From positions 78,242 through 142,241 of the forward strand of contig NW_003214849.1 of assembly GCF_000006405.1 (NCBI RefSeq): DNA of 64,000 nt. The letters are read 5' to 3'. The position numbers and the translations under genes were made by a program. Under the pieces are notes generated by a model, which made no database searches, was not told the DNA's origin, and was given only the letters and a program-made list of their open reading frames with translations. The stretch comes from Perkinsus marinus ATCC 50983. Taxonomy: Eukaryota > Perkinsozoa > Perkinsida > Perkinsidae. Shown in pieces: positions 48,501 to 51,500 of this stretch (position 1 is the first letter of the stretch; each line of letters starts with the position of its first letter).

Positions 48501-51500
48501 TCCTTTTTAACAGTCTCGTCCTAAACAATGGAGTTTCATTTGCGACACGAAAAAAACATACGTCATCACTCAGCGGAGTTTCACCGTTTTCCGCGAAATT
48601 CGGGTCATGCAGTAGTCGTGAAATATATTTTTCACTACTGTTTTTTCACATCACTAAAACTCCATAATATTAATTTTTCCATCGCATTTTCAATTCTCAA
48701 TAAATCAACACCCACCTGTAGTTCGATCCGATTCACCAGAGACTGTCTAAACGGACCGACGATATCCAGAAAAACCTAAAAACATTACAAAAAATTACAA
48801 AAAATTACAAAAAATTACAAAAAAATCAAGAAAAATTTTCTCGTCCGGTGAGCAACATTCTCAGGGAACTATTTCAATATAATAAATCGCTTTCTCCTGA
48901 TCTGACATTCATCATAACTCCTGTTGTCATCGTTGAACTTCAAACTCGCAATCGTGTATATTCACTAGAGTTTCACAAGCCGTTCTACGTGAAGTGTCGT
49001 AATAATACTCTGTGAAAAACGCGATATTCGCGGTGATATGCAGTAGTCGTTAAATATCACTAAGGTGAAACTCCATTAGAAAATCCTATTTCGCCCTTTT
49101 AAGCACTCATTCTCACTCACTACCCCAAAAGTTTGCAACACTACTACAATAGAAACCATGAAATGCCCCCACCTGTTTTTGCAGTATCAAACACGTCGTT
49201 GGCTCAGCTGCTGTTATTGTAGCACTTCTAGGAATCTCAAATAGCAACCCGCGCTCACCAAAATATTCCCATCTTGATAATGTACGAACTACCCCCTGAA
49301 AATAAAATCACATTTGCGCGATTTGAACCCGGGACCTCAATGGAGTTTCACCACCCTAGTGATATGAAAAACATATTTTACGACTACTGCATATCACCGC
49401 GAATATCGCGTTTTTCACATGGAGTTCTACAAACCGTTGAGCCTCCAATAAACGCTCTTAAGAACCACTAATTTCGGGCGAGCGAGAAATCATCCAATTC
49501 CTCACCTTTCCGGGTATTTCCACCGACACACTTCCTTTTCCGATCAGATAAAAATTATCAGACGGATCGCCCTAACAACAATATACACAAATCTTGAAAT
49601 CTTACCTCCACTTGCATTTCCTCAACGCTTACAAATGTGCAGATTTTTGCAAAAGCATCAAAACTTCGCTTCGACATGTTCATCACCACTCTCGAGAGCT
49701 GCTCTTTCGTGAGAGTTTTAAATAAATATATTTCCTGCAATATCGATCGGATCTGAAAATCAATCAGGAAAAATGACATCGCTCACATTCTAAATTTCCG
49801 AAATTAATCAACTCCATATTTTCAGGAATTGTGCGAAAAAAACAATAGAAATTATATTCAACGACTTGCTCAATAGAGTTCTCAAATGTATGTATTATTG
49901 CACCATTGGAATTCCACGCCCCGTTTTACGTGAAGTGGCGTAAAACTCTGTGAAAAACTCGATATTCGCGGTGATATGCAATAGTCGTAAAATATGTTTT
50001 TCATATCACTAGGGTGGTGAAACTCCATAGTTACATGTGATCTACATACACAACATGTACAAACAACCATATTCACGATTCTGATTTCTCATCCCAAACA
50101 ACAAAATTTCAAATATGAAATTTATAATAAACCCCCCGCGACCGTTTTCCGCTCCTCTCACTTCGTTCCATTCGAGATAGCGTCGCACGCAAGGTGGCCT
50201 CCCAGCAGGGGTAGATGACGACACATCGTACAATGGGTGAACCTACAAATAAATAACTACTAGCGTAAAGCGGTTGAGTTTTTAATGAAATTAATCTTGA
50301 AAATATATAATAATATAATATTTACACGTGGAGTTTGACCCTAGTGATATGAAAAAAACGCCCCTGAAAATAAATTTCACAAACATATCACCGCGAATAT
50401 CGCCCGAACTTTCTCACCACTTCACGTAAAACTACTCAACAATACTCTCATCACAACTCACCATATTAAAACTATTCCTCAGCTTTTCCAGAAAGGCCGC
50501 GCTCTTTATCGCAAATACGTGTAACTGCTCAGAAATAAAATAAAAATGAGACTAGTCTCCAAACTCAGTAACGTTCGAAGACTCCCAAGTTATAATTTCG
50601 AAAATCAATACTTCCAATTTCGTATAAACCATTTTGTTCATTCCTAATGGTAGTTTAACATTAATTTCTCCATCACTGCGAAGTTTCACCCGTGGTATTA
50701 AAACATTCGCAGAAAAAATATTTCACATTCCCCTTCGCGAAAAACACGCACTTTGTCAGTGAGTAACGCGTGAAAAAACACATCATGTTTTTCACTTGAA
50801 ATGAGGTGCAATTCGCCGTGCGTTTTCGATAGTGTCTATCGCGTTTTACACCACTTCACGTAAAACGGGTGAAACCCCCCTTCAAAAATCGTTCATCGTC
50901 ACCTTCTTACTCCATCATCACTGGTGGCAGTCAACATAAAATCAACTCTGCGGTTGTCCAAGAACTCCTCCTCACCCACACAGCAACCAGCAGTAACCTC
51001 CTAACACAAACAAACTTCCCCTTTTTGCTGCCAACCTCCAACGCCGTGTGATTTACTCTAGAGGAGTTTCCATTATGTGAGGCAGCTGGTCGCAACTCCG
51101 CCTGAAAAAGAAATAAAATACCTCCACAAAGATTTGAACCCGGGTGGATCGATTCAAAGCCACGACAACTAACCATTTCACCATTTATCCACCCTTCAAC
51201 TCACCGAGCCACACAGCACTATAAAGACCCTGGACTCATCATCACCTTTCCCTTTGACCACCATTTCTCCTTTTTTGTAATGATCTGCATACCACAACAA
51301 TACCACTCCAAAATATTTTCGCTTTCCTCAGCTGATGAGCTCAACAGCTTCCTCACTAACTATTATATACCGATCTGGAGACTTCGCAGAAACTACCCCA
51401 AATTTCCTAGCAGTTTTCAGATTGTCACCAACACATGTGGTTGGCCATGTGCAAAATACAACTACAAAACAGGAACTCGAAATCCTCTCGAACAAACTAA

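Follow-up and report, generated by a model that had tools for sequence, protein, structure and literature searches.

Within a 64,000-nucleotide (nt) stretch of the genome of Perkinsus marinus ATCC 50983 (contig NW_003214849.1, positions 78,242 to 142,241; hereafter the window, in which all positions below are numbered), a 103-nt intron of the gene for a cGMP-dependent protein kinase (PKG) resembles a tRNA over most of its length. We propose that this intron is probably a decayed tRNA-Gln(UUG)-type unit of RNA polymerase III (Pol III) that is now removed by the spliceosome, and that it belongs to an old, heterogeneous set of tRNA-derived introns. The ancestry of the intron in tRNA-Gln, and the recurrence of similar introns in other genes with a bias towards the sense orientation, can be read directly from the sequence. 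How such introns came into being is a separate matter, for which we weigh several explanations below.

The PKG intron and its likeness to tRNA-Gln

The original prediction described a 103-nt intron whose flanking exons join in phase within a conserved CNB domain, and this description holds. The intron lies on the minus strand at 51204..51102, has GT-AG ends (GTGAGT...TTTTTCAG), and on removal joins DDESRVFIVLCGS to AELRPAASHNGNSSR in phase 0 (VLCGS|AELRPA), in agreement with PKG of P. olseni (VLDGSAKFQPA in protein P0002 and VLHGSAKFQSA in P0004, by protein comparison). Retained in the reading frame, it leads to an immediate stop (VLCGSVS*). With GT-AG ends and a conserved reading frame restored on removal, it has the features of an intron of the U2 type. 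The P. marinus database protein P0001 has the identical acceptor and implies a donor near 51228 (WWSKGK|AELRP), at the cost of a conserved strand; we take this donor to be a slip of gene prediction. The four best database proteins for the host gene come from P. marinus, P. olseni and P. chesapeaki and identify it as Perkinsus PKG; a search of the PDB with the PKG domain gave no significant match (best E 0.077). Exon pieces were mapped with P0001 and P0002, choosing the GT-AG pairs that best restored the protein, which gave 23 introns of 46-914 nt. Among these, the intron at 47706-47401 is wrongly bounded because the script accepted a GC donor, and that at 51580-51322 is weakly supported and doubtful. 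Removal of the next intron downstream of the one studied here (51056-51001, 56 nt) restores EVTAGCCVGEEEFLDNR.

45525..56188, minus strand: PKG gene as far as mapped, comprising CNB domains and kinase; 24 exon pieces and 23 introns
51205..51280, minus strand: PKG coding sequence upstream of the intron, ending ..DDESRVFIVLCGS; exon start provisional
51102..51204, minus strand: spliceosomal intron of the PKG gene, 103 nt, tRNA-like over most of its length; P. olseni PKG agrees at the junction
51057..51101, minus strand: PKG exon downstream of the intron, AELRPAASHNGNSSR

The A box and B box that had been predicted at tRNA spacing are indeed present, with GTTCAAATC beginning 44 nt past the start of the A box. 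The T-rich tail had been assigned a dual role, as Pol III terminator and as polypyrimidine tract; this can be upheld to the extent that the tail sits at the position expected of a Pol III terminator and would now be usable as a polypyrimidine tract.

51173..51183, minus strand: A box TGGTGAAATGG
51131..51140, minus strand: B box GGTTCAAATC
51151..51159, minus strand: CTTTGAATC, matching the anticodon-loop stretch of tRNA-Gln(TTG) at every position
51131..51184, minus strand: ungapped alignment to host tRNA-Gln(TTG), 54 nt, 41/54 identical
51102..51122, minus strand: GGTATTTTATTTC (51122-51110) and TTTTTCAG (51109-51102), terminator-like T runs, polypyrimidine tract and acceptor

Comparison with a partial collection of host tRNAs, covering eight amino acids and one other, gave a score of 153 for tRNA-Gln(TTG) and of 70 for the next-best isotype, with both boxes and the anticodon loop in register within the alignment. 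Among 3000 dinucleotide shuffles the highest score was 113 (z ~11.5), and the score of the intron also exceeds those of all 2545 other chunks of the window, the runner-up reaching 111 (chunks of a tRNA-Thr gene omitted). Similarity to a host tRNA above chance, with the boxes in register, marks the PKG intron as a tRNA-derived element, and the term tRNA-derived intron is in our view well supported. The intron has kept the sequence ancestry of a tRNA and lost the tRNA fold.

A pattern combining the two boxes has six matches in the 54.5 Mb of genome searched (347 contigs), four of which are copies of the PKG intron, and the reversed pattern has none. The intron itself matches at least four places: the window, one place on contig C305 and two on C318. 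The C305 copy belongs to a block that matches the window at 95% identity, and the two C318 places share with the window ~159 bp that run from the last part of the upstream exon through the intron into the downstream exon; both boxes are at an unchanged distance in all four. Because exon flanks are shared, these copies arose by duplication of the gene region and not by transposition of the intron. We therefore rejected a young family of short interspersed nuclear elements (SINEs) consisting of the PKG intron, all of the matching places being in duplicated gene DNA. Of the earlier suggestion that a tRNA-derived SINE had inserted here, the tRNA origin stands, as tRNA-Gln, and the SINE is less certain: many copies with one consensus of head, body and tail were not found, and the source may have been a tRNA retro-copy instead. 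The AG at both ends of the intron, which bears on target-site duplications, is also a splice-site feature.

Similar introns in other genes

Other introns of the Perkinsus genome appear to share the layout of the PKG intron. A B box followed after 4-18 nt, the tRNA distance, by GTATTTT has 69 genome matches, and the reversed control has none. Thirteen are or resemble tRNA genes: four overlap tRNA-Arg genes, four (L105, L115, L125 and L135) are tRNA-gene-like, and five repeat the sequence of L125 (two on C269, three on C337). We examined 56 of the 69 with their flanks, plus three matches in the window (59 in all). The match on C305 is the sister of the PKG intron, and many of the matches that are not tRNA genes have the donor within the 3′ half of the tRNA or directly in front of it, and the acceptor shortly after the T run. 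Junctions were set by eye in 26 of the 56 loci because an automatic best-splice script frequently picked sites that were not the evident ones; 19 of these peptides were sent to Pfam, a selection that favours success. The 26 introns are mostly 37-53 nt long, a few of 84-97 nt carry an A-box-like sequence, and a few of 63-72 nt lack further support. A body or tail common to the units was not evident on reading the 56 loci, no systematic search having been made.

For five of the 19 spliced peptides a Pfam match above the curated cut-off spans the junction (L136, Helicase_C; L121, Glyco_transf_20; L109, Vta1; L141, TOM1-like; L119, CDC37_N), and the peptide of L142 aligns to structures of branched-chain aminotransferase (BCAT) free of gaps at the junction. 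In this way six further tRNA-like introns, in the genes for DHX15, BCAT, VTA1, CDC37, trehalose-P synthase and a TOM1-like protein, have a homologue or family match that crosses the join. The joins of DHX15 (FLTGEE|EIENAC), BCAT (TFIGTE|PSLEV), CDC37 (HPNLDT|GLN) and VTA1 (NEDRS|GEI) are free of gaps, those of DHX15/PRP43, CDC37 and VTA1 also against solved structures; for trehalose-P synthase a gap sits a few residues upstream of the join, and for the TOM1-like protein it is a family match that crosses. A second pattern, consisting of a B box, a T run and TTTYAG, has 28 genome matches (control 0), of which two overlap tRNA-Arg genes and one unit is counted twice. One of the six loci examined among these, L163, aligns with tRNA-Arg(TCT) over 57 nt without gaps (40 identical), with a score of 132 against a maximum of 108 in 500 plain shuffles.

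Different introns resemble different tRNAs. When seven fuller introns, picked by eye, were compared with host tRNAs, five beat all 500 shuffles: that of PKG, L141 (tRNA-Thr, 123 against a shuffle maximum of 85), the C263 copy of DHX15 (tRNA-Val, 100 against 90), L144 (tRNA-Gln, 101 against 95) and an intron candidate in the window, which is also the chunk that scored 111 above.

10360..10436, plus strand: 77-nt tRNA-like intron candidate in another gene; tRNA-Val score 108 against a shuffle maximum of 97; open frame ITIAQ|DAFAEGYVFYDGSNAG (frame only)

Across 48 units, A-box-like matches cluster 43-44 nt upstream (8/33 over 166 offsets, P = 5e-9), and most of the 48 are without a good A box.

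We also counted B boxes in a 210 kb sample not chosen for them, made up of the window (which holds the PKG intron), the flanks of tRNA genes and the flanks of CNB genes. B boxes outside tRNAs number 21 in this sample, against eight for the reversed motif, and a first TTTT follows after 11-14 nt in 11/21, against 0/8. The window accounts for nine of these eleven units and the remaining 146 kb for two, and for this reason an estimate of hundreds to a few thousand for the genome is no more than a guess. On both strands of the window there are 15 B boxes where 1.9 are expected (reversed control 5), in the tRNA flanks six, two of them tRNA genes, where 2.75 are expected (control 2), and in the CNB loci three where 1.65 are expected (control 2). 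Among the 23 PKG introns, three hold a B box in sense orientation, against 0.12 expected (P = 2.5e-4; P = 6.5e-3 with the reported intron omitted). Consistent with a sense bias, a spliced open reading frame scored above 3 in 21/52 cases in sense and in 6/52 in antisense orientation (P = 6e-4, four near-duplicate pairs included).

49296..49505, minus strand: PKG intron (210 nt) ending in a B box (49329-49320) and TGATTTTATTTTCAG
55545..56056, minus strand: PKG intron (512 nt) starting GTAGTGGGTTGG; close to the 5′ end are a B box (56029-56020) and GGGGTATTTTT

Further units of B box and T run lie in the window at 7800, 33788, 52167, 3524 and 318, and at L019:2589 and L023:2716; those at 7800 (plus strand) and L019 read as whole introns, and that at 52167 is antisense inside a 784-nt PKG intron.

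Other repeats were noted in passing. At L082 and G000:C48, ~28000-41500, there is a tandem array of ~134-bp units, each with a sequence like tRNA-Gln that has CTCTGAATC in its anticodon loop, more than 40 of them among the matches listed; a stretch of ~1 kb on C201 (L083) reads as three different decayed tRNA-like units. A recurrent repeat (GGAGTTTCAC..CCTAGTGATATGAAAAA and CACTTCACGTAAAACGGGTGAAACTCC), with the look of a miniature inverted-repeat transposable element, occurs in many long introns, including those at 49900-53800 in the window and other PKG introns. A tandem repeat of ~58-60 bp (GTGTTGGAGTAGGAATATATGTTCGCTTTCCTCAGCTGAGCTCAGGAGTTTCC) occupies 52850-53440, inside a PKG intron, and similar single units occur in other introns. 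The window also contains an RPL7A gene with 96% identity to that of P. chesapeaki.

Origin of the tRNA-like introns

We suggest that tRNA genes, or tRNA-like (SINE-like) ones, gave rise to Pol III transcripts that, U tails included, would have been copied into DNA within genes, and that copies would have persisted where an AG|GT lay 5′, be it in the flanking exon, in the 5′ flank or in the AGGTC of the tRNA variable loop. The terminator T run together with an AG would then have served as the 3′ splice site, 5′-truncated copies giving introns of ~37-53 nt and fuller copies those of ~77-103 nt. The layout of B box, ~12 nt, T run and AG would be explained in this way, because it is what is expected when a U-tailed Pol III primary transcript is copied into a gene. 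Several host tRNAs carry AGGTC or AGGTT in the variable loop, and at L097, L110 and L114 the donor precedes GGTTC by six nt, which is the position of a variable-loop AG|GT; from this we infer that the variable loop was a source of donors. For PKG itself it is likely, though not certain, that an insertion made the intron and did not enter an older one; retroposition and truncation are presumed steps. More tentatively, and with somewhat more doubt than confidence, we extend this to a large class of Perkinsus introns, which may have been gained when Pol III transcripts, tRNAs or tRNA-like and of multiple isotypes, were inserted, with a variable-loop AG|GTC or the 5′ flank as donor, the terminator as polypyrimidine tract and 5′ truncation as the source of two size classes.

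Several observations weigh against tRNA-derived introns as described here. ARAGORN and Rfam give no tRNA for the PKG intron or the other units scanned; for that intron no cloverleaf is recognised even at loose thresholds, and the Rfam tRNA model lists none of the units of the window and none in L002-L004 or in 20 other loci. Covariation in the T stem is absent from the 48 units (111/192 paired, against 119.8 permuted). Two of the seven fuller introns do not exceed their shuffles, the C52 copy of DHX15 (79 against a maximum of 97) and L131, which is just short (96 against 99), and 13 of the 19 spliced peptides are without support over the join. Enrichment of B boxes outside the window is modest, and one of the 23 PKG introns, against 0.10 expected, holds its B box in antisense orientation (the unit at 52167). 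Finally, in both families compared, paralogues have introns of other sequence at the same site: the DEAH paralogue C56 has an unrelated, non-tRNA intron of 132 nt at the DHX15 site, and the BCAT paralogues C197 (48 nt) and C79 (40 nt) have introns without an intact B box at the BCAT site.

Same-site introns in paralogues would fit either of two histories: an old tRNA-like intron has decayed, or tRNA sequence entered an older intron. On the second alternative, tRNA retro-copies or SINEs were passengers that entered pre-existing introns, and shrinkage left mostly the tRNA-like unit. We regard this as a real possibility, though on the whole a doubtful one. The sites that BCAT and DEAH paralogues have in common speak for it, as do the 210- and 512-nt PKG introns, in which the unit sits amid other sequence, and the 784-nt one, in which it is antisense. 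Yet the short introns are filled by the unit, the layout of T run and acceptor is fixed, and the sense orientation is favoured. The BCAT intron of C197 is, moreover, weakly alignable to that of C312 (P = 0.014), as would be expected had a shared tRNA-like intron decayed, although the C79 intron does not align in this way (P = 0.57). Within PKG, the remaining CNB domains do not share the intron site, as read from the exon map. In the DHX15 family, the introns of all three copies C263, C52 and C69 hold a B box and a T run, those of C52 and C69 with an A-box-like sequence in the same intron, and the DEAH paralogues C25 and C12 have no intron at the site. Intronless BCAT paralogues, suggested by tblastn rows, were rejected, introns being present there on reading.

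It is unlikely that the units are instead still-working Pol III or TFIIIC sites within introns, with A and B boxes under selection. The spacing from B box to T run is kept, the distance between A and B box is constant in the four copies of the PKG intron, and between the C263 and C52 copies of DHX15 the boxes are identical at 22/24 positions and the remainder at 36/51. This conservation of the boxes is, however, not significant (P = 0.07 for DHX15; for PKG 20/24 against 52/67, P = 0.77), the BCAT paralogues are without an intact box, and a good A box is lacking in most of the 48 units. Least probable by far is a chance look-alike of A and B boxes in an ordinary intron, or an unrelated splicing motif of Perkinsus introns: the boxes are short and degenerate, the tRNA fold is not kept and the T stem does not covary, but the 54-nt ungapped match to tRNA-Gln that spans the anticodon loop makes chance improbable already for the PKG intron, as do, beyond it, the resemblance of different introns to different tRNAs and the A box at tRNA spacing.

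Relation to known sources of introns

The origin of new introns is a long-standing question, and several families of introners have been tied to DNA transposons. If the introns described here are tRNA-derived as we propose, they would represent an RNA-copied, promoter-carrying source of introns, inserted mostly in sense at several unrelated genes; one and the same T run would be explained as terminator first and splice tract later, and tRNA genes would be a self-renewing source of spliceosomal introns. A report of tRNA-derived introns in Perkinsus was not among the papers listed from the open-access literature searched. The original prediction held that no tRNA-derived introner family with this layout is known, a statement that needs qualifying by a case in rice. 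The p-SINE1 element is tRNA-derived. An intron of the rice catalase gene CatA is p-SINE1-like, going by the titles of the reports (Iwamoto 1998, 1999); there, as here, an intron is SINE-like, and the difference is that the titles concern one intron of a single gene, as against several genes and several tRNA isotypes in Perkinsus.

With tRNA-derived SINEs and tRNA retro-pseudogenes the Perkinsus units have in common internal A and B boxes, a decayed tRNA body and dispersal; unlike these, they finish with a T run and in many cases serve as introns. By what they do, introners are the nearest known kind. Introners (Gozashti et al. 2022, PMC9860276; Amoebophrya, PMC7789003) are repeats that constitute entire introns in numerous genes of a single genome, and in Perkinsus, too, entire introns in many unrelated genes consist of similar sequence, the likeness being confined to the tRNA-like layout. 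The introners of Amoebophrya bear inverted and direct repeats (PMC7789003), and the words 'tRNA', 'SINE' and 'Perkins' do not occur on a word search of the main text of PMC9860276 (Gozashti et al. 2022). Unlike introners, the Perkinsus units are heterogeneous, resemble tRNAs, and carry Pol III boxes as well as a T run like that of a terminator.
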